From: Rhodohalobacter sp. 614A
Lineage (GTDB): Bacteria; Bacteroidota; Rhodothermia; Balneolales; Balneolaceae
DNA: 64,000 nucleotides
Direction: 5' to 3'
NCBI RefSeq assembly: GCF_021462415.1
Contig: NZ_JAKEDS010000001.1
Coordinates: forward strand, 964,273-1,028,272
Both the position numbers and the translations under genes were made by a program. Positions 48,846 to 62,110 of the stretch are shown one piece after another. The notes under the pieces were generated by a model. The model did not search any database, had not been told where the DNA came from, and saw only the letters and a program-made list of their open reading frames with translations. Position 1 is the first letter of the stretch. Every line of letters starts with the position of its first letter.

Positions 48846-49937
48846 CTATGGTCTTAAAACAATATCCACAAGTTCGCCGGGCATGAGTTGAACATCAATC
48901 GAATCGGCCATGGCGATTTTTATGGGCAAACCGCTCTCAAAAATGGCGCCGGGTCTCTGGATGTTCCGCTGCAAAAGACGAATGTGTCCACCGACTTCCT
49001 CGATTGTGGATTCAAAGAATGTTCGGTCTGCTTTTCGGGTTCGCACCTGAACGTTCATACCGACTTCAGGAGTTTGCGCAAATGGCTGCCGGACGTATCC
49101 AACGATATGCTTTGGTACACGTGATTCAACTACCAAGATAGAATCGCCGCGTGAAACAAACTCTCCAGTACGGTTTTGAACAGAACTGATTACGCCGCTG
49201 ATGGGTGCATAAAATGGCGTGGGACCAAACTCTGCAAGAATGGCCTCCATCTGTTGTTCCTGAACTTTGATGGCTGCCAAAACAGGATTTCTATCTCTTC
49301 GGTCTGCATAGGAAGTATACTCTTCAATTTCAACGATGCGGTCGGAATAATAATCCAGCATATTTTGGTACTCATCAACCTGAACCTCAAACAATTGGAG
49401 TTTGGTTTCGACCGAATCAAAGCGTTGCCTGGAAATCAGGTCGCGATTCCACAAGTCTTCAAATCGTTCATATTCCGCTTCGGCCTGTTGCCTTAGAAGC
49501 TGTGCCTGGGCCAACGAAATTCGTGTTTCCATCTGGTTGATTTTCAACTCCTCAAGATTCAGCCGTACTCGTTGTTCTTCCAGCACAGGTTCACGGGTTT
49601 GTTTGATTCGATCGATTTCAGACTGAATCAAATTCAACTGTGCCCGGAGAAAAACACTGTCCCGGGGAAATACCTGCCCAAGGAGCTGACCCTGCTGAAC
49701 CTCATTAAACTCATCGTAATAAAAATTGATCAGCGTTCCATCGACCGGGCTGGAAATGGCGGCGCGATCCCCAACCACTTGCCCGATGAGTGTGGGGTGG
49801 CTTGTGGTATCCCGCCAAAGATAAATGACGGCTACTCCCACGCACAGAAAAACAATAATTGGTAGTACCCGAACACGGAACTCACGAAGGCGCTGTTTTC
49901 TCGGAATTGGAATCGGTTCAAACGTGTTTTCTGCCAT
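48846..49937 (-). CDS. HlyD-family membrane fusion / periplasmic adaptor protein
   Basis: 363 residues. A short cytoplasmic basic N-terminus and one membrane segment (about 23-41, VLPIIVFLCVGVAVIYLW) precede a lipoyl-like half-motif (ISSPVDGTLINFYYDEFNEV), a long coiled-coil hairpin (about 100-215) and a closing lipoyl half and beta-barrel (PTPFYAPISGVISSVQNRTG). I chose the ATG at 49937 because a clear GGAGG lies 9 bases upstream. It follows the DUF4956 gene at once. No exporter pump or TolC is adjacent, so its partner is likely the DUF4956/VTC unit (inference). Confidence 0.88.
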   Translation of the reverse strand: MAENTFEPIPIPRKQRLREFRVRVLPIIVFLCVGVAVIYLWRDTTSHPTLIGQVVGDRAAISSPVDGTLINFYYDEFNEVQQGQLLGQVFPRDSVFLRAQLNLIQSEIDRIKQTREPVLEEQRVRLNLEELKINQMETRISLAQAQLLRQQAEAEYERFEDLWNRDLISRQRFDSVETKLQLFEVQVDEYQNMLDYYSDRIVEIEEYTSYADRRDRNPVLAAIKVQEQQMEAILAEFGPTPFYAPISGVISSVQNRTGEFVSRGDSILVVESRVPKHIVGYVRQPFAQTPEVGMNVQVRTRKADRTFFESTIEEVGGHIRLLQRNIQRPGAIFESGLPIKIAMADSIDVQLMPGELVDIVLRP

Positions 49938-49941
49938 TGCT

Positions 49942-50628
49942 TTATACCTCCGATTCGTCTTCGGCACGCATGCTGCTTACATCCGAAACGCCGTCAATTT
50001 GTTTGATTTCAGACAGAAGCAAATCTACTCTGTCAGGATCGCGAAGCAACAGGCGGTAGGAGAGATGTGTTCTGTCCATTTCTTCATCTGACCGCTGGGA
50101 TGCTAATCGTGTTTTTAACGAATGGCGTTTCAAGAATTGCTGAAGATAATTAAGGCGGGAAAGCGGCTCTGACCACTGGAGATTCAGAATTAAATCGTAT
50201 CTCTGTCGCGAGCCAAAATTCGTAAACCAGATGAAAATCAACGCCAGGGATGCAACCGCCGTGCCCACAATAGCTGTCGAAAATTTTTGAGTGCCGCAGG
50301 CCATACCAATCACGATTAATGAAAGGATATAAGCCGTATCAAGCGTATCGCGTAAAATATTTCTGAAACGAACGATCGCAAAAACAGCGAGAAGACTAAA
50401 GGCTGTAATCAGATTGTTGTCCAGAACCATCATGACAAGTGCTACTGTAATGGGAATGATGATAAGCGAGCTCACAAAATTCCGTGAATAAGAAAGTCCG
50501 GTATGGGTGTACATGTAAATCCAGGCGAGGATCTGCCCGCACATAAACGAGAGCAGTAATCCTAAAAGCAGGGTTGGCAAATCCGTGGGGATGGGTGCCG
50601 TATCACCAAATTGAAACCATTCACTCAT
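49942..50628 (-). CDS. DUF4956 family integral membrane protein
   Basis: 228 residues with about five membrane segments (for example LLLGLLLSFMCGQILAWIYM, FVSSLIIIPITVALVMMVL, FSLLAVFAIVRFRN, AYILSLIVIGMACGT) and a soluble C-terminal region of about 85 residues with an ACT/ferredoxin-like pattern. The FAIVRFRN...RDTLDTAYI motif is typical of DUF4956. Such genes are often found next to VTC-domain genes, and here the start overlaps the VTC gene by 8 bases. The molecular function is not established. Confidence 0.87.
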   Translation of the reverse strand: MSEWFQFGDTAPIPTDLPTLLLGLLLSFMCGQILAWIYMYTHTGLSYSRNFVSSLIIIPITVALVMMVLDNNLITAFSLLAVFAIVRFRNILRDTLDTAYILSLIVIGMACGTQKFSTAIVGTAVASLALIFIWFTNFGSRQRYDLILNLQWSEPLSRLNYLQQFLKRHSLKTRLASQRSDEEMDRTHLSYRLLLRDPDRVDLLLSEIKQIDGVSDVSSMRAEDESEV

Positions 50629-51391
50629 GATAAACAGGTGTAAAATTTATGCCGTTTTCGATGTTATTGAACCGCAGACGCTCAATACTGTCTACATATT
50701 TTGAGGCCGATTCATGACGCAGATGAAACCTCTGCGTTAGCTCGCGAAGCCAGTCAGGAAATCGGTTTGTAAACTTAAGTTCCAGGATCACCATATTTCC
50801 GAATACGGAAAATTCGTTATCTAAATATGCAGGAATTCTGTTTTGGTGAACCCGGCAGGCACGGATATTTCGATCCATCGTTAAGCGTACATCATTTGTA
50901 TCTTCTGATTCGTATGCTTCCCGAAAGTAGCTTATCAGCATTTTGGGAGTCGCCCGCAGTTCTCCGGACAACATGCAAAAGTGCTCAAGTGCATCCATTT
51001 GAGTCGAGGATTTTACAACCAGGTGACTTTTCGTCGGAACGTGGCCATTCAACAAATCCTGAACGGCAGTTCTGTAAACCTGTGCGCGTTTTTTGCGGAT
51101 GACTCGATTATTTCGCTGTTTGATCTCAAAGAAAACCGGAGATTCATCACTGTTGTAATATCTGAGGCGAAGTTTGAAACGGTTGCGGTCGCCATTTACT
51201 GTTCTGTGATAGGTGTTCAATCCGGGGGAGTCGAGATACAAACTGTAAATTGCATACGACCGGTTTGGCTGACTGGCCCCATATGGATCACATTCAAGGT
51301 AATTTTCCACAAAGAAACGAATTTCCTGTGCCTTCACCTCGTTGATGCGGTACTTTAATTCAAAGCGTTGTCTTTGAAATGTTTGGTCCAT
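50621..51391 (-). CDS. VTC-domain protein (polyphosphate polymerase type, tunnel metalloenzyme fold)
   Basis: 256 residues with the tunnel-fold charged strands: RQRFELKYRI, YAIYSLYLDSPGLNTYHRT, NRFKLRLRYYN, PVFFEIKQRNNRVIRKKRAQ, and toward the end NMVILELKFTNRFPDWL. These Lys/Arg/Glu-rich alternate strands match the VTC4-like domain that makes polyphosphate from ATP in yeast. The lining residues needed for catalysis look present, but activity is inferred. It overlaps the DUF4956 gene by 8 bases, so translation is coupled. Confidence 0.9.
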   Translation of the reverse strand: MDQTFQRQRFELKYRINEVKAQEIRFFVENYLECDPYGASQPNRSYAIYSLYLDSPGLNTYHRTVNGDRNRFKLRLRYYNSDESPVFFEIKQRNNRVIRKKRAQVYRTAVQDLLNGHVPTKSHLVVKSSTQMDALEHFCMLSGELRATPKMLISYFREAYESEDTNDVRLTMDRNIRACRVHQNRIPAYLDNEFSVFGNMVILELKFTNRFPDWLRELTQRFHLRHESASKYVDSIERLRFNNIENGINFTPVYHE

Positions 51392-51546
51392 AACGGTTTT
51401 CTAACTGAATACCGGTAGAATGTGGCGGAAATGCCAAGCCACTAAAATCTCGTACGAACTATCGATACTCTCTTCAACAAAAAGATACTTCTATGAAGAA
51501 TACTGATTTGAAATGAGTTTATAAAGCCCTCTTCGAAGTGAACTTT

Positions 51547-54500
51547 TCATTTCACCACACTCATTTTTTTTACATCAGAAAAATCATCCGTAACCAGCCT
51601 GTACAAATAAATTCCACTGGCCAGCGAACCAAGATCTATATCAATGTAATGGTAACCCGCTTCGGCCGGGCGGTCTTCCAGTTTGGCTATATGACGGCCA
51701 TCAATGGAGAAAAGATCAATTTGAACGTGCTGATTCTGCGGCAAATCATACCTGATTCTCGTTTCCGGATAAAATGGATTCGGGTAGTTTTGATACAGAT
51801 AAAACTTCTCCGGCACAGGGTCTGGCTCGGGTTCGGGATCTGGTTCTTCAGTAAATAGTTGAGAGGTAACCCGGATCTCTGAGATATTCAGCATCGATCG
51901 CTGACCGCTCTCTTCATCCACACGCTGGCCGATATAATAGTATCTCCAGAGGAGTTCTACCCGGGGTTGTTTTTCGGCATCAGGAGGAAGAAATACGGGA
52001 TTGACGGCTTCAGAATGGCCCGCTACTTCGTTGCGTGAATATTCAACGGGATCTCCGGCATCATCCAGAACATCCCGAAAGGCTTCATCCGGATCCGTTC
52101 GGTACTGAAGACGTAGATTGTAAATTCTTGAATTGGGTTCCATCGTTCCGGCGGACCACTCAACATTCACCGAATCCTGGCCTTCGGTATTCAGAACCAA
52201 AATAGCGCCGCCAAGCCGTGTACCGGGATATCCCGGGTTTCCATCTTCATTACCTGTGTTGATGAACGAAAATCCATCTTCGCCGAATCCATTGATGCGG
52301 GTTCGCGAATCAAGATCGTATTCACCAAAAGTAAATCCGTCAACGGAAGCTCCTAAACCGGGATCGGCTTCATCCATATAAACAAATGCCATCGAATTCG
52401 GATAAGTACCGGCTGGTTCCTGATCACTCCATTCAGAAAACCGGTATTCCCCATCAGCAAGAATATGCGGGGTGATTTCGGTAAAATCTCTTTCCGAAAA
52501 AACGGCAGTGGCTGTATCAACCGTGTCGGGCAGAACTTCAATGTTGGGAGTATAAACTTTTGTATGGTTTACCTGCCAATATTTAAAAACCAATTCCTGG
52601 CCTGTTTCTACATTTAAAAGAACAGGTACGCCTGAAAAATAGGTGCCTGTCCAGGGAAAAGGATCGGGTAAAATTCCAGGAGTATCCGGTGAAATGTGCA
52701 GGGAGTTGACGTGAACATCCGTTTGGTATGGGTGACTGGAATCAACCGTAATCGTACTTGTTGAGTCAATCCCAAAATGATTCATGATATGTTCGCGCAA
52801 ATATTCTGGACGCTGTTGGATAAACGTGTACAGCTCATCCAGATTCTTTGTCCACGCATTGTAACCCTTCGGATAAATCCACCGTTCCATGTGATTTTCC
52901 ATCTCCGGCTCAATCAATGTTTTTATACTATCTACGATAGCTGTCATCCTTTCGGCTTGAAAAGATGTATTGAGATGATCGGCAATCCGGTTAATGAAAT
53001 TGTCTTTGAAGTTTGGATTTTGGGCCAGTCTTCTGAAAATCATGCCCGGCCATGTTTGATTGTTCTCGGGATTCTTTTCTGCCAGTATCCATTCAATCAT
53101 ATCGAACGATGCTTTGGGAATAGCTCCGTCAGTTCCCACATCATAAGCAAACGACTGATCGAGATCGTAAAACATCCACCGCCAGCGACCGTCATGTCCG
53201 GGTGGGGCGTCTTCTTTAAACGGAACTCTCAATCTCCAGAACTCCATATTATTTTGGGGCCAATCCACATTCGCGAAATAAACCTCTGCCGTGTAATAAT
53301 CCATGAAGTTATCAAGGTCTATTTTTCTTCGAACATGCCCCATGTTTTGAGAGAGCGACAGGTCTTTATTTTCGACAAAATGCAGAAGTGCTGCATACTC
53401 CTGATTGCTGCCCTCTTCTTCGGTCCACCTTCCGGAAAGGTAGTCGATATTATCGGGATCGATACCGTACACTCGCTCCAGGTAGTGGGCGTCAAACCGT
53501 TCGCGAATGTTATGAATGCCCCAGTATTCCCCGTTAATGTACACAGCAGCCGGCCGGTAAGCTTGTGTATCCATATTGAAATGCTTTACTGTAAGATGAG
53601 CTGCAGCATCCCGGATCATTGTAATTCCAAAATCATTACCGGAGTTTCGGAGAATCAGGCGGTCGTACGTTTCATAATCCTGGTCAGGAAAAACAGGATA
53701 GTTGATTCGGCTCTCTCCGTATTCGCTTCTTGCGTACACGCGAAGGCTTTTTTGCGGTAACCGTCGCGTCCAGCCTCCATGAATTCGCAGACCTACATTT
53801 TGGGAAAATCCACGATGGCCATCTGGCTCAAAAAATTCCATGGAAGCTTCGCGCTCCCAGGCATCGCCGTGCATGTAGTAATTGCCGGTATCGTCTCGTC
53901 CGTCTGCATAGCGATTGCCGGGAACGTAAATCCCGGTTTCATCGCTAAACAGGTTCCGGTTATCAGTTGCCAGAGAAATCACCGGGAGATTGTGTGTGGC
54001 CGATCCATCATCAAAAACAAAATAAGTGGATCCTGAAAAAACAGGAAGATATCCATCTTTTACGGCTTTGATTCGCAATACAGTTCCCTTCAGGATATTC
54101 CCTGCGGGGTCCTGTGACTGAAGCCATCCGCTGACATGATTGGTTCGAATGGTTGAAATATTATTGGCCTCATTACTGCGGTTTATAATAGAAATGGGGC
54201 CGGAATATATGGCGGAGTTTTCATCAGGAGTGGAGCCGTCCAGCGTGTAATAAATCGTTACATTTTCCTGGGGATGTGAAATTTCCAATTCAAACGGCGA
54301 TGTATAAAATCCCGGTGTATGAGACAATTGTGGCGGTTCAAGTTGGCCACCGGTACTTTCTGTATCGTTTGAGATGCCTGGAGTGGGCATGTCAAAAAAG
54401 ACCCAGTCGCCGGTTCCGTCTGGCTGACGGCCAATGGAAACATCAGATGGGATTTCTGTAGGGCTGAGCTGATCAACTTGTGTTCCGTCCGGATGCGTGA

Positions 54501-54882
54501 GAATGACCGTTTCACCGGAAGCAGAAATTGCAAAATTGGTATGAAGTTCTCCCCCAGCAGTATTTCTCTCTTTGTTGGACGCCCAGATCAGCATAAAATT
54601 TTTGGGTTGAATAATTGTGTCAGGGAATGTCCATTTAAAAGGCTCATCCTCGTCATCCGAAAGTCCAAATCCGGCCAGTTGAATGGTATCACTGCCTGCA
54701 TTATAAATTTCAACCCAATCCTGGAAATCTCCGTCTTCATCAGAAATGATGGAATCGTTTGAAGACATAACCTCATTTAAATAAAGGTCCTGTCCAAAAA
54801 CCGCTGTCGGGGAGTACACAAAAAGAAATGCAAATAAGAGAAATCTCAGACCAGCGAGGGTCAATAGGTTCATGAACTTCAT
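51547..54882 (-). CDS. Secreted CotH-kinase / lamin-tail protein with T9SS sorting domain (copy B)
   Basis: About 1111 residues. A signal peptide (ends near AVFGQ) precedes a lamin-tail domain (LNEVMSSNDSIISDEDGDFQ), a chitobiase-type beta-sandwich (YYTLDGSTPDENSAIYSGPI) and a CotH-type kinase domain (about 300-660). In the kinase domain are LRIHGGWTRRLPQKSLRVYA with a candidate ATP-binding lysine, MIRDAAAH, DNFMDYYTAEVYFANVDWP and DGRWRWMFYDLDQSF with candidate metal aspartates. A beta-rich region and a type A T9SS signal (LYQNYPNPFYPETRIRYDLP) end the protein. It is probably exported to the cell surface. I use the ATG at 54882; a GTG at 54891 also opens the frame. Confidence 0.88.
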   Translation of the reverse strand: MKFMNLLTLAGLRFLLFAFLFVYSPTAVFGQDLYLNEVMSSNDSIISDEDGDFQDWVEIYNAGSDTIQLAGFGLSDDEDEPFKWTFPDTIIQPKNFMLIWASNKERNTAGGELHTNFAISASGETVILTHPDGTQVDQLSPTEIPSDVSIGRQPDGTGDWVFFDMPTPGISNDTESTGGQLEPPQLSHTPGFYTSPFELEISHPQENVTIYYTLDGSTPDENSAIYSGPISIINRSNEANNISTIRTNHVSGWLQSQDPAGNILKGTVLRIKAVKDGYLPVFSGSTYFVFDDGSATHNLPVISLATDNRNLFSDETGIYVPGNRYADGRDDTGNYYMHGDAWEREASMEFFEPDGHRGFSQNVGLRIHGGWTRRLPQKSLRVYARSEYGESRINYPVFPDQDYETYDRLILRNSGNDFGITMIRDAAAHLTVKHFNMDTQAYRPAAVYINGEYWGIHNIRERFDAHYLERVYGIDPDNIDYLSGRWTEEEGSNQEYAALLHFVENKDLSLSQNMGHVRRKIDLDNFMDYYTAEVYFANVDWPQNNMEFWRLRVPFKEDAPPGHDGRWRWMFYDLDQSFAYDVGTDGAIPKASFDMIEWILAEKNPENNQTWPGMIFRRLAQNPNFKDNFINRIADHLNTSFQAERMTAIVDSIKTLIEPEMENHMERWIYPKGYNAWTKNLDELYTFIQQRPEYLREHIMNHFGIDSTSTITVDSSHPYQTDVHVNSLHISPDTPGILPDPFPWTGTYFSGVPVLLNVETGQELVFKYWQVNHTKVYTPNIEVLPDTVDTATAVFSERDFTEITPHILADGEYRFSEWSDQEPAGTYPNSMAFVYMDEADPGLGASVDGFTFGEYDLDSRTRINGFGEDGFSFINTGNEDGNPGYPGTRLGGAILVLNTEGQDSVNVEWSAGTMEPNSRIYNLRLQYRTDPDEAFRDVLDDAGDPVEYSRNEVAGHSEAVNPVFLPPDAEKQPRVELLWRYYYIGQRVDEESGQRSMLNISEIRVTSQLFTEEPDPEPEPDPVPEKFYLYQNYPNPFYPETRIRYDLPQNQHVQIDLFSIDGRHIAKLEDRPAEAGYHYIDIDLGSLASGIYLYRLVTDDFSDVKKMSVVK

Positions 54883-54958
54883 AGGGAGCACAAGCGGAGC
54901 AAAGAGTTAGGAGGAAAGTTTCATTGTTTAAAAATTGAATCATTCATAAAGAGCGGTT

Positions 54959-57900
54959 TCACTTCACCACACTCATTTTTTTTATGTCTGAAAAATCATC
55001 TGTCACCAACCGGTATAAATAGATTCCACTGGCCAGAGAGGTTACATCCACATCAATGTGGTGGCGTCCGGGTCCGGCCTGGCGGTCTTCCAGTTTGGTG
55101 ATATGACGGCCGTCAATTGAAAAAAGATCGATACGAACGTGCAGATTTCGCGGCACATCATACCGGATTCTTGTATTCGGATAAAACGGGTTCGGATAGT
55201 TTTGATATAATCGCACTTTCTGCGGCGGACCAGGATCTCCACCAAGCAATGGTTCGGAAGTCACGCTAATTTCTGAAATGTTAAGCATGGATCGTTGTCC
55301 GCTCACTTCATCATCCTGCTGGCCTGTGAAATAATATCTCCAAAGGAGTTCCACTCCGGGCTGGTCTTCGGCATCGCTGGGAAGTATAACGGGGCCGATG
55401 GTTTGTGTGTGTCCTTCCATTTCGTTTCGTTCATATTCAACGGGATCGCCATTTTCATCAAGAACATCCCTGAAGGGTTCGTCGGAATCCGTTCGGTACT
55501 GAAGCCGGAGATTGTAAATCCGTGAATTGGGTTCTATAGTCCCGCCGGTCCACTCAACCCGAACAGATCCCTGGTTTTCGGTATTCAAAAAAAGAATGGC
55601 TCCGCCCAGCCGGTTGCCCGGATAGCCGCGATTGCCGTCTTCATTTCCCGTATTGATAAACGAAAAACCGTCTTCTCCAAGACCATTGATTCGTGTTCTG
55701 GAAGTCAAATTATAAACTCCCTGTGTAATTCCTCCAACCGAAGAGTCCAAATCCGGATCAATTTCATCCATATAAACAAAGGCCATGGAAGCGGGATACG
55801 TACTCTCTGGCGATTTTGGATTCCATTCTGAGAACCGGTAGTTGCCTTCGGACAGTTGGTGTGCTTCAAAATCGGAAAGAGCAAGAGCTTTAAAGACCGC
55901 CGTGATGTTTTCAGTTGTATCCGGTAAAACGGTTAGTTCATATGAGTAGACCTCTCGGCCGTCAACATTCCAGTGAGACAGATAGTAGTCTGTTTCCGGC
56001 CGGGTTTTTAATGTAATGGGCACACCTGAAAAATAGATCCCATTCCACGGATAAGGATTTTCATCAACGCCGGGTGTTTCGGGGGAAATCAAGAGAGAGT
56101 TTACAACAACATTTCCATGATCGGGATCACTCACATCCACAGAAACGGGTGCGGTGGATTCAAGCTCAAAACGATTCAAGATATGTTGACGCAACTGATC
56201 GGGACGTTCGTCGGCAAAGGTTCGCATAACATTCACAAACCCATTCCATTGATTCATTCTCTCCGGCCGGCTCCAACGCTGAATATATTGTGGCATTTCC
56301 GGCTCAATTTGTGCCTGAAGGCGATTGATAATTCCAATCACGCGGTCTGTTCTGAATGAAGTATTCAGGTGGTCGGCCATCCGGTTGATGAAATCATATT
56401 TGAAGTTTTCGTTTTGCAGGAGATTCCAGATAATAAGATTTGGCCATTCTACATCATCGAACAAATAGCGCCGCGTTACCCGATTCAACATATTGTAATC
56501 TGCACTTTCCCCAAATCCCAGGCCCACATCCATATCAAACATCATCCATCGCCAGCGGCCGTCGTGCCCCACCGGCGCATGTTCATCATAAGGCACATGA
56601 AGCCGCCAAAAATCTACATTGCCGAAAGGCCAATCGGTATTATTGAGATAAATTTCAGCCGTGTAATAATCCAGGAAATTATCGATATCCATGAGAGTTT
56701 TAACCGAATCCATATTGGCTTCATCAGAGAGATCTTTGGAATCAATAAAGTTTACCATGCCTTGATACGGCCAGTTGTTCCCATACTGAATTTCCCAGCG
56801 ACCGGTCAGGTAATCAATCCTGTCGCCGTCTACGCCGTACACCCGTTCGAGGTAATTGTCATCGAATCTTTCGCGGATGTTGTGAATGCCCCAGTACTCT
56901 CCGTTGATGTACACCACAGACGGCCGGTGTGCCTGAGTATCCATATTAAAATGGCTGACAATGGTATGCGCAGCTGCATCGCGAAACATCGTAAAGCCTT
57001 GTTCATTTCCGGAGTTTCTCAGTAGCAGGCGTTCGTATTCATTGTACTCAAGGTCAGGAAATATTTGGTAGTTAATGCTGCCTTCCCCATACTCTCCGCG
57101 AGCGTACAGGCGAAGGGTTTTGTGCGCAAAACGACGGGTAAAACCGCCGTGGATTCTGACACCAATATTCTGTGAGACCCGGAGTTCTCCGTTATCATCA
57201 AAGAATTCGAAAGAGGATATCCGTTCCCAGTTGTCGCCGGTTTTGTAATAATTGCCGGTGTCATCGTCCCCTTCTTCATAATGCGTGCCGGGAACGTAAA
57301 TTCCCTGTTCATGGCCAAACAGGTTCAGGCTGTCGGTAGCAATGGAGATGACCGGCAGTTCATGTTTACCCTTTCCCTCGGGGAAAACGAAAAATGTATG
57401 GGTTGATTCTACCGGGCGGAACCCATCTTTTACTGCCAGTATTCGAATAACCGTACTTTTTGGGATGAGTCCGGCCGGTTCTCTGAATCCGTGCCATCCG
57501 CCCATAAATGTTGTAGGAATTGTGGAGTAAGAATTCGGCTGGCTGCTTCTGTCGGAAATAGAAATTGGCCCAGAATAAACGGAAGATTCTTCAGTTGGAG
57601 TAGATCCGTTCAGTGTATAATGAAACGTGACATCCTCTTCGTCATGAGAAAGTTCGAGGTTGAAGGCAGAATTATAAAACCCGGGCTCATGCGAAAGAAC
57701 AGGTTGATCGAGCTGCTCAACAAGGGATTCGGTGTCGTTCGCTGCTCCGGGAGTCGGTTCATCAAAAAGAAACCAGGCTCCGGTGCCATCGGGCTGGCGG
57801 CCGAGAGAGATGTCATTTCCAAGTTCCCGTTCGGGAGATTGATCCAAAAGGTCGCCGTTGGAGTGTGTAAGAAAAACTTCCTCGCCTCCCGCAGACACGC

Positions 57901-58246
57901 CATAATTTGTATGAAGCTCGCCGCCGGGAACGGATCGGTCTTTATCCGATGCCCAAACTAATATAAAATCACCGGGCTGGATGGTGATGTCGGGGAAAGT
58001 CCATTTGAATGGTTCGTCTGCATCATCCGAAAGTCCAAATCCGGAGAGATTGACCGGTGCATCGCCGGAGTTGAAAATTTCGATCCAGTCTTCGTAGTCG
58101 CCGTCCTCATCAGCCAGGGTGGCGTCGTTGGACGACATGATTTCGTTCAGCTTCAAATTCTGCGCAAAAACATGACTACCAAACACTACCGCGAATAAAA
58201 GAAACAAGCAAAAAATAGTAACAAATTTATTCAAAACGCCTCTCAA
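54959..58246 (-). CDS. Secreted CotH-kinase / lamin-tail protein with T9SS sorting domain (copy A)
   Basis: 1095 residues, a tandem paralogue of copy B with the same order: signal peptide (ends near HVFAQ), lamin tail (LNEIMSSNDATLADEDGDYE), chitobiase-like sandwich, CotH kinase (VRIHGGFTRRFAHKTLRLYA, DNFLDYYTAEIYLNNTDWPF, DGRWRWMMFDMDVGLGF), beta-rich region and T9SS tail (YQNYPNPFYPNTRIRYDVP). The C-terminal third is most similar, and the last 70 or so codons are nearly the same even in DNA. The start is a TTG (58246 with GGGAG upstream, or the TTG four codons on); no ATG is available. It is first in the minus-strand gene set. Confidence 0.87.
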   Translation of the reverse strand: MRGVLNKFVTIFCLFLLFAVVFGSHVFAQNLKLNEIMSSNDATLADEDGDYEDWIEIFNSGDAPVNLSGFGLSDDADEPFKWTFPDITIQPGDFILVWASDKDRSVPGGELHTNYGVSAGGEEVFLTHSNGDLLDQSPERELGNDISLGRQPDGTGAWFLFDEPTPGAANDTESLVEQLDQPVLSHEPGFYNSAFNLELSHDEEDVTFHYTLNGSTPTEESSVYSGPISISDRSSQPNSYSTIPTTFMGGWHGFREPAGLIPKSTVIRILAVKDGFRPVESTHTFFVFPEGKGKHELPVISIATDSLNLFGHEQGIYVPGTHYEEGDDDTGNYYKTGDNWERISSFEFFDDNGELRVSQNIGVRIHGGFTRRFAHKTLRLYARGEYGEGSINYQIFPDLEYNEYERLLLRNSGNEQGFTMFRDAAAHTIVSHFNMDTQAHRPSVVYINGEYWGIHNIRERFDDNYLERVYGVDGDRIDYLTGRWEIQYGNNWPYQGMVNFIDSKDLSDEANMDSVKTLMDIDNFLDYYTAEIYLNNTDWPFGNVDFWRLHVPYDEHAPVGHDGRWRWMMFDMDVGLGFGESADYNMLNRVTRRYLFDDVEWPNLIIWNLLQNENFKYDFINRMADHLNTSFRTDRVIGIINRLQAQIEPEMPQYIQRWSRPERMNQWNGFVNVMRTFADERPDQLRQHILNRFELESTAPVSVDVSDPDHGNVVVNSLLISPETPGVDENPYPWNGIYFSGVPITLKTRPETDYYLSHWNVDGREVYSYELTVLPDTTENITAVFKALALSDFEAHQLSEGNYRFSEWNPKSPESTYPASMAFVYMDEIDPDLDSSVGGITQGVYNLTSRTRINGLGEDGFSFINTGNEDGNRGYPGNRLGGAILFLNTENQGSVRVEWTGGTIEPNSRIYNLRLQYRTDSDEPFRDVLDENGDPVEYERNEMEGHTQTIGPVILPSDAEDQPGVELLWRYYFTGQQDDEVSGQRSMLNISEISVTSEPLLGGDPGPPQKVRLYQNYPNPFYPNTRIRYDVPRNLHVRIDLFSIDGRHITKLEDRQAGPGRHHIDVDVTSLASGIYLYRLVTDDFSDIKKMSVVK

Positions 58247-58443
58247 TTAGCTCCCGAAGTACAAATGGTTATAGAAAGATGACAAAAAAAAGAGATTGTG
58301 CAAATGGAAATTTCTCGACTTGTTATTCGTGAAAAATTCTGATCACTAGGCGTAGCATTTTTTTTGGTTTGAATTAATCCACAGAATAATTTACAATGGG
58401 ATCAAGAAGTATCGGTCAGTTCCTATTCAAGCAATCATCAAGT

Positions 58444-59002
58444 ATGAAATACATTCTACCATTTCTTTTCCTTCTGTTTGTATTCCAGTTTTTGGGCTGT
58501 TCAGATGATACCGTAAATCACTCCGAAACAGAGCTGGAAAAATCTGAGTCTACCGAACAAAAAATCGACGTCGCCGAGGATCAAACAGAAGTGTATTATA
58601 TGCACGGCACTCAGATAAGCCACCGGTTGTGTTATGCGGCAAGTTGCGAAAGTGATATTCTTGAAAGCGATACGCTGAATACATCTTTCCTCGTTCGTTT
58701 AACCTTCAGTAGTGAAAATCCCGATTCTATTTTGTTTGATGGACTTGAAGGAGTGAATACCAAACCAAGAGAAATGTTTGCCGGGTATAGTGGCGGGGCT
58801 GCATATCCCGACTGCACGGGGCCTTCAACAGAATGTGGCATGCCCGTGTAATTTGGAGTTTGAATTTTCTTCGCCGGGTGGACACTATAACGGCACTGGG
58901 AACCTTGATAACGACAGGCTGACAATACAGGCACAATATCGTTACAGAGGTGCCGGTGCAGATTATATTTTGGAAGGTCAAAAAATAGTGGAGGAAGAAT
59001 GA
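58444..59002 (+). pseudogene. Small lipoprotein, unknown family, member 1 (frameshifted)
   Basis: Reads MKYILPFLFLLFVFQFLGCS (lipobox Cys19), then EVYYMHGTQISHRL, LFDGLEGVNTKPREM, YPDCTGPSTEC and stops at 58851. The expected C-terminal strands (NLEFEFSSPGGHYNGTGNLD through YILEGQKIVEEE) continue in the next frame up to 59002. Comparison with the three other members shows one protein broken by a +1 frameshift near 58840-58850. This may be a true mutation, a sequencing error, or less likely recoding. It overlaps the next member by ATGA. Confidence 0.72.
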
Positions 59003-59532
59003 AACGGCTTCAAAATAAGAAAGGAATTTGGCTTGTCGTACTATTCTCCATTTCAGGCTTTTTAGGCCTGTATAGTTGCGATGATTCGTCTACAGATCCC
59101 GACAAAGAAGGTACAGCAATTTCCGGATTACTCTATGTAAGCGGCAATCAGATTACGAAGAGATATTCAGATTGGCCAATTCCTGAAAATGATGTGGCTT
59201 CAGTTTACACTATGCGCGTCGGATTTTTAGTGAAAATTCATTCCATCAGAGGGGAGGAAAACTCGATAAGAATGTACGGATTGGAAGGCGTTGATGTGGG
59301 AAAACGCGAAAATTACCTCTATCCCGATTGCAAGCACCCCGATGATTGTGAAATAGTAGGGATGTTTGTTGGCGAAGATTTAGAAATTGAAATCACCAAC
59401 AACGACCGATCTTACCAGGCGGAAGGGAAGATTTACCAGACGTACGATCCCTATTTAGAAATGACGGCTGTTTTTAACTATCAGAATGTAACGGTCCATT
59501 ATGAAGTAGAGGGTGGCTTATTGAGTGAATAG
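58999..59532 (+). CDS. Small lipoprotein, unknown family, member 2
   Basis: 177 residues with a lipoprotein signal (GLYSC, Cys27). The core repeats the family pattern: GLLYVSGNQITKRY, IRMYGLEGVDVGKREN, YPDCKHPDDCEIVG with two cysteines, and YQAEGKIYQT. It is predicted all-beta. I do not recognise the family. Its start overlaps the stop of member 1, so the two were translated together. GGAGGA lies directly upstream of the ATG. Confidence 0.75.
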   Translation: MKRLQNKKGIWLVVLFSISGFLGLYSCDDSSTDPDKEGTAISGLLYVSGNQITKRYSDWPIPENDVASVYTMRVGFLVKIHSIRGEENSIRMYGLEGVDVGKRENYLYPDCKHPDDCEIVGMFVGEDLEIEITNNDRSYQAEGKIYQTYDPYLEMTAVFNYQNVTVHYEVEGGLLSE

Positions 59533-59535
59533 AAG

Positions 59536-59550
59536 AACTTGGCAGAGTTG
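59536..59550 (+). repeat. Solo half-site of the intergenic repeat (AACTTGGCAGAGTTG)
   Basis: This 15-mer resembles AACCTGGTAGAGTTG at 62743 and the outer arms at 62716 and 62832. It begins a few bases after the stop of the preceding lipoprotein gene. It is probably a single arm of the same repeat type. Confidence 0.4.
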
Positions 59551-59828
59551 TGGAGTGTGTGACGACTAAGTAATTAGATTGTATTATAACCTTAGTTGAT
59601 TTTTTGTAACAAATGGCTTTGTGGTGCATTATTCTATTACTTATCTGGACATTCCGGTACACAGGTACAGCAACATTGAGAGTGCATAGATACAGAAACC
59701 TGACCATTAGTTCTGAGGAGAGGAGTATCAAAAGGAGGCTGATAAGCAGGACGCACGTATAACAGCAGCTATTCGAACGGGTGCCGGTTTGATCAGTCAA
59801 CCGAAACACACATCAACGAGGTATAGCC

Positions 59829-61478
59829 ATGAGAAACGCAAGAACTGCAACTCTGATTATTGTACTGTTTATCATAACAGGAAACTTGCTTTCGTGCAAT
59901 GAAAGCAATATAGCAACTGACAACAGCACTGAGCAATTAGCGACCGCAAATGTAAATGCTTCGGCAGCAAAGCAGGCACAAAAAGATTCACCACAGGAAG
60001 TATTTGCAGAGTTTGAGGAGATGGTGAAAGAAGTAGAAAAGATGACTATAGAAGAGATCGACAATCTGAGTGATGAAGAAATATTAGAGATTGGAGAACC
60101 GATTTTAAAAGCTACTGAAGGCACTGTAACACACAGTAAAGAGACCCTTGAAAAACTGGTAGAGCCTTTATATGCAATCTCGGATAATGTACGAACACTT
60201 ACGAGAAAGGAACACGCTGCCTTAAGTAAAGAGGTAGAGCGAATTCTGGCATCTGATAGGGGCCGTAAAACACGGGACCTTAGTGCTGAAGATATTCGCG
60301 AATTATTGATTAAATTTAATGGTGGCGGCACAACCATGATGTTATCCAGCTGTGAAACTACATTCGATGTAACCCCGTCTGGACAGGTTTTGCTATATAC
60401 TGGAGATAATTTTAATATGGCAAATGGAATATGCCCGACTGGTTCCGTTTTTTATGTTCAGGCAGGTACTCACACGGGTCAATCCGTTAATAATTCAAAA
60501 ACCGGAAATGCATGGGTAGGTGTAGGTGTAGGAGGGCCTACTATGGATGGCCAAGGTTCACTAAACCGGGCCTTCAATGATGGAATGAATGGCAATAGCA
60601 TCAGTTGGATTGAAATTACTGATTACGACGAATATGGAATTTTTTCCGATTCTGGTACGGAAGAGTTGTTAATCAGTAATATGACCTTTATTGAGATTGG
60701 GGATGGTAAGAATGGAGAATTTTATAGTGCAATCCGAATTGATGATGCGGAAGATTTAATTGTTCAGGGTTCATATTTTGAAGATGTATCTTCCAGTATT
60801 TTATTTGACAATAGCATTGGCCCCCTAAAGGTACTTGATAATGAAGCATTAAATCCCGGTAGAAATTTTTTCCAATGTACTGACTGTTCTGGAGAAGAGA
60901 TAAGAATAAACGGAAATTCAATAGAACATAATTCTCAGTACGGTTCGGAGAAATTAGAAGATTTTATCAGTATTTATGAATCATTTGGTGAAGACGATGA
61001 CTATATACAGGTAAATAATAACCGGGCAAGAACGGATGGCACGGGAAGCGGAGTTTCTGATACGGGTTCTTTTATCATCTTGGGAGATGATGGGGGTGAG
61101 TACCAGGAAGCAGAAGATAATATTGGTGTAAATCCTGGAAACGCTGGAATTGGAGCGGCCGGAGGTGAATATATCAGCGTGAGTGATAATAAGATGTTTA
61201 GTGATCCTATAGAAGATATAAGCAATGTAGCCTTTTATTCATACCGGGTATTAGGCTCAGATCCCTGTAGTAACCATGAGTTCGATGGGAATGTTGCCCA
61301 TTGGTATTGTTATCGTGGAGATTGCGGTGGAGATCCGACACCAGTTTTAAACAAGGCTCATGCACCAACTTCCAGTGGGTCAAGTATTTATTGCGGGTTA
61401 ACCTTGAGTCAAATTAGACACAATTCAAGAGTATTAGAAGACACGGGTATGGACGAAGACATATGGGATGAATGGTAG
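59829..61478 (+). CDS. Lipoprotein with helical N-terminus and predicted right-handed beta-helix
   Basis: 549 residues. The lipobox NLLSC gives Cys23. An acidic helical segment (about 50-155, with EFEEMVKEVEKMTIEEIDNL) may form a coiled coil. After a short link it becomes beta-helix-like, with recurring short strands and Asn/Asp turns (SWIEITDYDEYGIFSDSGTE, LIVQGSYFEDVSSSILFDNS, IQVNNNRARTDGTG, YISVSDNKMFSD). No polysaccharide-lyase catalytic motif is seen. It sits among members of the small lipoprotein family and ends at a good terminator. The function is unknown. Confidence 0.75.
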   Translation: MRNARTATLIIVLFIITGNLLSCNESNIATDNSTEQLATANVNASAAKQAQKDSPQEVFAEFEEMVKEVEKMTIEEIDNLSDEEILEIGEPILKATEGTVTHSKETLEKLVEPLYAISDNVRTLTRKEHAALSKEVERILASDRGRKTRDLSAEDIRELLIKFNGGGTTMMLSSCETTFDVTPSGQVLLYTGDNFNMANGICPTGSVFYVQAGTHTGQSVNNSKTGNAWVGVGVGGPTMDGQGSLNRAFNDGMNGNSISWIEITDYDEYGIFSDSGTEELLISNMTFIEIGDGKNGEFYSAIRIDDAEDLIVQGSYFEDVSSSILFDNSIGPLKVLDNEALNPGRNFFQCTDCSGEEIRINGNSIEHNSQYGSEKLEDFISIYESFGEDDDYIQVNNNRARTDGTGSGVSDTGSFIILGDDGGEYQEAEDNIGVNPGNAGIGAAGGEYISVSDNKMFSDPIEDISNVAFYSYRVLGSDPCSNHEFDGNVAHWYCYRGDCGGDPTPVLNKAHAPTSSGSSIYCGLTLSQIRHNSRVLEDTGMDEDIWDEW

Positions 61479-61513
61479 CAACCATCGTTTGAAAAGTCCC
61501 AAAAAAACATTTA

Positions 61514-61550
61514 AATCCCCGCTGGTTTTAACTGCGGGGATTAGAATTTT
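61514..61550 (+). terminator. Probable terminator after the beta-helix lipoprotein gene
   Basis: The stem AATCCCCGC / GCGGGGATT (9 bp) with an 11-base loop is followed by AGAATTTTCTT. The stem is GC-rich but the T-run is interrupted. Confidence 0.7.
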
Positions 61551-61603
61551 CTTAAAGTTATCTTTGAAGTGTTTTCAAAGCACGAAAACTTAAGCAACGA
61601 AGC

Positions 61604-62110
61604 ATGAATAAAATGAGTAGCTATTATGGAGTAAAAACAACAGCGCTGACAATAGCAATTTCCTGTTTCTGTTTGCTATTGGGCTGCTCTGTTGAACCGG
61701 AAGAGCCCGTTGATAATATTTCAGGCGTCTATTATTTGAGAGGTACACAAACTCATTCAGGATTACCATGGTTTAACCGTTTAATTGATTACAGGGATCC
61801 ATATACAAACTATACGGAGTTTTCCTTTTATGTGAAACTGGTTAAAGATAAGGTGGATACGGTTCGTATATACGGCCTTGAAGGAGCCGATGCCGGTATC
61901 GCTGAGAAGAAGGTATTTCCAAATTGTACCAATTCTGATGATTGCAAGGTATACGGAAAGCGAAAATCTTCCGGGGAGATTGAAATTGATATTGAACATG
62001 ATGGTCGCAGATACCAAGCATCCGGTTATATTACTTCGTTGACCGCTCGCTTGTCGTATGGCAATGTTTCGGTAGACTACGATCTGTCAGGAAATCCAGT
62101 CGACCGATAA
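61604..62110 (+). CDS. Small lipoprotein, unknown family, member 3
   Basis: 168 residues with lipobox LLGC (Cys28). Family landmarks: GVYYLRGTQTHSGL, VRIYGLEGADAGIAEKK, FPNCTNSDDCKVYG (two cysteines) and RRYQASGYIT. It is followed 27 bases later by member 4, probably in one transcript. No homologue function is recognised. Confidence 0.75.
   Translation: MNKMSSYYGVKTTALTIAISCFCLLLGCSVEPEEPVDNISGVYYLRGTQTHSGLPWFNRLIDYRDPYTNYTEFSFYVKLVKDKVDTVRIYGLEGADAGIAEKKVFPNCTNSDDCKVYGKRKSSGEIEIDIEHDGRRYQASGYITSLTARLSYGNVSVDYDLSGNPVDR

Follow-up and report, generated by a model that had tools for sequence, protein, structure and literature searches.

Bacterial polyphosphate is normally credited to PPK enzymes and to cytosolic granules. 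In yeast, the VTC complex (Vtc1/Vtc3/Vtc4) couples synthesis to translocation across a membrane, and changing R264, R266 or E426 of Vtc4 inactivates the enzyme (PMC9911596). Bacterial relatives of its catalytic domain have been met among the accessory genes of Gram-positive pel operons, which include cotH, a polyphosphate-polymerase gene, DUF4956 and DUF4832 (PMC7112168), and in Clostridium perfringens NELoc-2, where each of two VTC genes has behind it a gene as long as DUF4956 that is annotated as tubulin/FtsZ, with CotH coming next (PMC2879425). A streptococcal protein of the CotH/VTC/DUF4956 locus has been described as joining an MgtC domain to an ACT domain, and the synteny of the three genes has been stated not to be found outside pel loci (PMC12345266, 2025). 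Two further systems invite comparison, namely the EmrAB-TolC pump (4tko, 8zar) and the Bacillus CotH spore-coat kinase with the Fam20C-like kinases (PMC7821199, PMC12189002).

Here we describe a locus of Rhodohalobacter sp. 614A that resembles each of these in part. The window, by which we mean the whole 64,000-nucleotide stretch of DNA analysed, contains the following features:

54959-58246, minus strand: CotH1, a predicted secreted CotH-type kinase with signal peptide, LTD, Fn3-associated region, CotH domain and T9SS tail
51547-54891, minus strand: CotH2, a paralogue of CotH1 (59% identity) with like domain architecture and a T9SS tail
50621-51391, minus strand: VTC, a predicted stand-alone triphosphate-tunnel phosphate-polymer polymerase
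50621-50628, minus strand: 8-base overlap of the VTC stop and the DUF4956 start, ATGAGTGA
49942-50628, minus strand: DUF4956, a predicted membrane protein and proposed inner-membrane conduit
49947-49951, minus strand: GGAGG, the HlyD ribosome-binding site, within the 3' end of DUF4956
48846-49937, minus strand: HlyD, a predicted periplasmic adaptor

Overall, we believe that the locus encodes an exporter that carries a phosphate polymer, most likely inorganic polyphosphate, across the envelope as it is made, together with the surface kinases that it serves, and we put the probability of this reading at about one half. Like the eukaryotic VTC complex, the proposed system has a TTM/VTC domain, matching tunnel residues and a membrane partner, and would combine cytosolic synthesis with translocation across a membrane; it differs in that the polymerase and the membrane part (DUF4956) are separate proteins without an SPX domain, and in adding an adaptor (joined in relatives by a TolC-like protein) and a link to CotH kinases. 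The pel accessory genes and NELoc-2 likewise bring matching protein families into adjacency (PMC7112168, PMC12345266, PMC2879425), whereas the locus, set against the pel accessory genes, has HlyD and T9SS-sorted CotH proteins and no pel or chitin-synthase-like genes. EmrAB-TolC offers the nearest HlyD fold, in EmrA, and the same plan of inner-membrane protein, adaptor and TolC-like protein (the last in relatives), but here the inner-membrane place is taken by DUF4956, for which no transporter domain is known, and a polymerase serves as genetic partner. The CotH domain is shared with the spore-coat and Fam20C-like kinases, and its conserved Asp/Asn pattern appears to be; unlike Bacillus CotH, the window proteins carry LTD domains, would reach the cell surface through T9SS and belong to a Balneolaceae genome. 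What is plausibly new is that the VTC plan of polymerase and translocase would here extend over two membranes and include a kinase as partner, and a literature search of partial coverage found no paper joining HlyD or TolC to VTC/DUF4956.

The initial annotation had named five adjacent minus-strand genes of these families, and all five are present as ORFs with Pfam matches; the 8-base overlap and the separate GGAGG of HlyD are also correct in the sequence. The genes run head to tail, with 67 bases between CotH1 and CotH2 and 155 bases between CotH2 and VTC, followed by DUF4956 and HlyD. Translational coupling of VTC and DUF4956 through their overlap is likely. The HlyD ATG at 49937 lies 4 bases past DUF4956, with GGAGG nine bases before it, and the upstream GTG at 49967 given in the ORF list is therefore probably not the true start. 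CotH1 begins with TTG, at 58246 or 58234. A promoter and terminator scan of the locus gave scores no better than those of shuffled sequence. The single VTC gene, the single DUF4956 gene and both CotH genes of the host genome all lie within this locus, and the neighbourhood is conserved in relatives, which together place the grouping beyond chance; PPK1 is encoded elsewhere in the genome. Flanking the five genes are dxs, queA, a PD40 protein, DUF4440, Peripla_BP_2 and ORFs that match no Pfam family, with neither contiguous pel genes nor a TolC-like gene beside them.

The VTC protein (256 aa) consists of the VTC domain alone (Pfam PF09359, E 1.6e-42, covering positions 2-234 of 235), without the SPX domain and the C-terminal membrane helices of Vtc4. 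In the PDB its family profile picked out fungal VTC chains and nothing else, with catalytic Vtc4 the best (3g3q, 1.2e-17). Residues R75, R77, R157, R169, E204, K206, K13 and K231 are invariant in all aligned members covered. Loss of the catalytic tunnel residues had been set beforehand as one observation that would sink the single-system idea; they are kept, with R75/R77/E204 aligning to Vtc4 R264/R266/E426. Vtc4 R361, R373 and K458, which we take to be further catalytic residues, align to R157, R169 and K231. Judged from these residues, the protein looks like a competent Vtc4-type polymerase that would make polyphosphate from ATP.

How far the neighbourhood extends was surveyed in a scan of GTDB genomes seeded with DUF4956, which gave 80 loci from many phyla, a sample biased towards DUF4956-bearing loci in which the VTC-DUF4956 pair is almost universal. 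At most loci of the host's class VTC, DUF4956 and HlyD stand together, and the triplet recurs in Verrucomicrobia, Planctomycetota, Bacteroidota, Ignavibacteria, Marinimicrobia and other groups in three gene orders: VTC-DUF4956-HlyD (Balneolota, Verrucomicrobia, Planctomycetota), HlyD-VTC-DUF4956 (Bacteroidota, Ignavibacteria, Marinimicrobia) and DUF4956-HlyD-OMF-VTC (Fibrobacter, Delongbacteria, Spirochaetia and a gammaproteobacterium, in which one additional gene is present). The association of CotH, VTC and DUF4956 genes, which the initial annotation took to be seen elsewhere, is borne out by the Gram-positive pel operons (PMC7112168). At the same time, the triad is widespread in many phyla outside pel loci, which contradicts the published statement on its synteny (PMC12345266) and makes it no peculiarity of Pel loci.

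Among VTC-DUF4956 pairs at most 300 bases apart, with HlyD scored within 400 bases, HlyD adjoins 77 of 102 pairs in double-membrane phyla and 0 of 29 in a single-membrane group (Actinomycetes, Chloroflexi, CPR), counts that ignore phylogeny, with HlyD presence and T9SS each following phyla; several of the 25 diderm pairs without HlyD are contig ends. Protein distances of VTC, DUF4956 and HlyD correlate (0.96, 0.90, 0.89), and all three window proteins are closer to verrucomicrobial copies (VTC 45-50%, DUF4956 55-62%, HlyD about 30% over its entire length) than to those of other families of the host's class, which suggests that the three genes passed from one phylum to another as a block. Sequence comparison thus supports the VTC-DUF4956-HlyD triplet as the constant core and a single unit. 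About 70% of VTC-DUF4956 pairs have no CotH inside 2.5 kb, and CotH is better supported as a genome-wide partner, sometimes adjacent and otherwise elsewhere, so that of the five-gene system first proposed the triplet and the partnership stand, and the constancy of all five genes does not. This scatter, and the fact that distance correlations rise from shared descent alone, would suit a locus in which the CotH genes and an unrelated HlyD sit beside VTC-DUF4956 by descent with no joint function, but three gene orders with HlyD upstream or downstream, a triplet that apparently moved between phyla as a unit, the lack of HlyD in monoderms and the co-occurrence of CotH in unrelated phyla make this very improbable. 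In a separate case, in Balneolales, the module is duplicated in tandem (L113:1539-10656) as VTC-DUF4956-HlyD-CotH-VTC-DUF4956-HlyD. The yidC- and mnmE-like genes upstream of VTC in L036/L041/L043 were set aside as conserved chromosomal neighbours outside the module.

HlyD (Pfam HlyD_3, E 9.3e-10) is modelled (pLDDT 87.8) with one N-terminal membrane helix, a barrel-sandwich and a long helical hairpin (116-164/170-212), and the closest solved fold is EmrA (4tko, Foldseek E 9.6e-17). The operon offers no inner-membrane partner besides DUF4956 and lacks an MFS, ABC or RND transporter. The initial annotation had proposed DUF4956 plus HlyD as the conduit; HlyD and TolC do appear as conduit parts, and in relatives it is a TolC-like protein that completes the set. 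Such a gene joins the module in L131, L132, L154, L166, L172, L187 and six planctomycete loci, and in L166 the order is DUF4956-HlyD-OMF-VTC, with overlapping gene ends, followed by CotH. Pfam OEP matches were obtained in L131 (9.3e-13), L148 (2.7e-20) and L166 (1e-4); the assignments in L132, L154, L172 and L187 are by profile only, and those of the remaining planctomycete genes by likeness to L148. A search of the PDB with the TolC-like profile found nothing. HlyD genes in L046, L063 and L074 were rejected as module parts, their neighbours being RND-size proteins and not VTC.

DUF4956 (Pfam E 7.1e-11) is modelled at a pLDDT of 76, at which we trust the outline alone, with five predicted membrane helices (17-136), no visible channel and a C-terminal domain (144-224) that is ACT/ferredoxin-like by fold match. 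Sequence searches of the PDB gave nothing useful, and the fold search matched the ACT-like domain alone, barely covering the membrane part. Across 52 diverse sequences R87-F88-R89, G108 and G112 are invariant, and the Arg pair would lie at the cytosolic mouth provided that the ACT-like domain faces the cytosol. A relationship to MgtC is hinted at by one DUF4956 relative, at 0.0027 and below the cut-off, and by a profile-profile probability of 15-17%. DUF4956 is not always accompanied as in the window: one longer DUF4956 protein (353 aa; L093:2997-5463) is followed by a calcineurin-like phosphoesterase with VTC absent, and in another family of the host's class (L077, L078, L079) a DUF2490 gene precedes VTC-DUF4956, replacing HlyD. 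A DUF4956 gene is likewise listed with a DUF2490 gene in Bacteroides thetaiotaomicron (BT3498-3499; PMC10434189).

The exporter reading meets its main difficulties in two places. In 21 sister genomes DUF4956 is present and VTC absent, and the 16 such neighbourhoods examined keep DUF4956-HlyD-OMF, with CotH elsewhere in nearly all, so that VTC is dispensable there; the TolC-like gene stands beside DUF4956-HlyD in these genera too (L081-L098), with Pfam OEP matches in 3 of 14 members of this type (best 9.8e-6). When VTC was deleted in Streptococcus intermedius, the only published deletion of this kind, there was no aggregation phenotype and Pel stayed intact, and deletions of the DUF4956 and CotH genes altered both (PMC12345266). 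The PPK1 of the host genome, the 25 diderm pairs that lack HlyD and the middling DUF4956 model with no visible channel also weigh against this reading. Since VTC-less sisters and a silent VTC deletion would fit a channel that can be supplied with polymer from elsewhere or with a different cargo, other readings have to be weighed. In one, DUF4956-HlyD-OMF exports some other phosphorylated or anionic cargo, such as ATP or another nucleotide, a phosphorylated glycan or a teichoic-like polymer, which VTC modifies or primes with phosphate, making no free polyphosphate, and CotH finishes outside. The 21 sister genomes speak for such a cargo, as do the place of the triad within Gram-positive pel polysaccharide operons (PMC7112168) and a polysaccharide deacetylase-like protein adjoining the triad in L076; the flanks of the window genes are free of glycosyltransferase and polysaccharide genes, however, and the VTC tunnel residues match those of chain-making Vtc4, and we hold this reading to be quite unlikely.

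A second alternative takes the locus for a regulatory module in which DUF4956, with its five membrane helices and ACT-like, MgtC-like features, senses phosphate or energy state and exports nothing itself, VTC produces a small polyphosphate signal or works on a nucleotide, and a surface polymer is adjusted by CotH and HlyD. Small ligands are what ACT domains usually bind, and the weak MgtC similarity of DUF4956 points the same way. The triad seems to act so on Pel in streptococci, where deletions of SIR_1592 (DUF4956) and SIR_1594 (CotH) shift the amount of Pel in opposite directions and that of SIR_1593 (VTC) has no phenotype (PMC12345266). Nonetheless, a sensor leaves unexplained why an adaptor, joined in many phyla by a TolC-like protein, is tied to DUF4956 in diderms but absent from monoderms, and why DUF4956-HlyD-OMF operons exist without VTC, and we consider it unlikely. 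Beside these VTC-less operons we note that in sister genera of the host's family (L081-L092, L095-L098) DUF4956-HlyD-TolC-like is followed by a gene read as a short-chain dehydrogenase. The small gene c6, which precedes DUF4956 in genomes that lack VTC, was tried and rejected as a substitute tunnel enzyme, its sequence being hydrophobic and its homologue sitting apart in the VTC-bearing locus L075.

Both CotH proteins match the CotH domain (Pfam PF08757, 8.2e-45 and 5e-53) and also carry LTD, CHB_HEX_C_1/Fn3_assoc and a sorting tail (Por_Secre_tail, 1.1e-6 and 6.5e-7; TIGR04183 as well), which should be usable given that the host genome encodes the T9SS protein SprA (match 4.8e-99). In the CotH alignment D543 is invariant and D576/D578 are at least 90% conserved, the Asp pattern is kept in both window copies, and the D543-N548 spacing equals that of PKA D166-N171. 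The active-site Asp pair of B. subtilis CotH is D228 and D251 (PMC7821199), to which the window residues were mapped by spacing only and not by alignment to the B. subtilis protein.

Among 196 genomes of the host's class, CotH is present in 47 of the 48 that bear VTC and in 67 of 70 with DUF4956, as against 21 of 126 without DUF4956; these counts ignore phylogeny, and the association in the class is still strong when counted by genus. In Actinomycetes CotH occurs in 15 of 34 VTC-positive genomes and in 8 of 213 without VTC, and in a cross-phylum set 45 of 50 DUF4956-positive genomes encode it, in up to 29 copies. At diderm loci, 22 of 29 linked CotH proteins have a T9SS-like tail where HlyD is present and 2 of 17 where it is absent, the latter group mostly with an N-terminal membrane anchor. 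Both states are already seen inside one phylum, Planctomycetota (L133/L138 against L168/L171). That the reach of the conduit matches the location of the kinase is suggestive only, since the tail was called by a regular expression, shared ancestry was ignored and T9SS is limited to some phyla. At one locus, an arylsulfotransferase with a T9SS tail is placed between CotH and VTC (L185:5523-7097).

The system is real, widespread and partly described before, and its mechanism as an exporter is plausible; polyphosphate as product, its export, a direct complex and the use of the polymer by CotH are steps that we infer. Cytosolic VTC would polymerise phosphate from ATP inside its tunnel, an activity suggested by the invariant Vtc4 catalytic residues, and the nascent chain would be threaded into DUF4956, whose invariant Arg pair we take as cytosol-facing and which would stand in for the membrane helices that Vtc1/3/4 provide in yeast. 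HlyD would dock on DUF4956 and, with a TolC-like protein, carry the chain through the periplasm and the outer membrane. Outside, the T9SS-secreted CotH kinases would use or respond to the polymer, phosphorylating or building the cell surface. That exported polyphosphate is itself the phosphoryl donor, or the transferred group, for extracellular CotH kinases seems unlikely; if true, an energy-rich polymer pushed out by a polymerase-driven tripartite conduit would phosphorylate proteins outside, where ATP is scarce. The question bears on the route of polyphosphate to cell surfaces and on the phosphate source of secreted kinases, and the exporter reading, if correct, would amount to a bacterial version of the VTC complex that spans two membranes, and would provide a role for DUF4956 and a directly testable form of extracellular phosphorylation.

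Two other parts of the window deserve mention. At 58396-62110 lie three small ORFs, lipoprotein-like and related to one another, together with one of 549 aa; none of them matches Pfam, and similar ORFs also stand beside the CotH genes of relatives L038 and L040. Judged from translations alone, 12050-42196 is a pectin/uronate utilisation region, with uronate isomerase-like, KDG kinase-like, pectate lyase-like and pectinesterase-like proteins, a TRAP transporter and a SusC/SusD-like pair.
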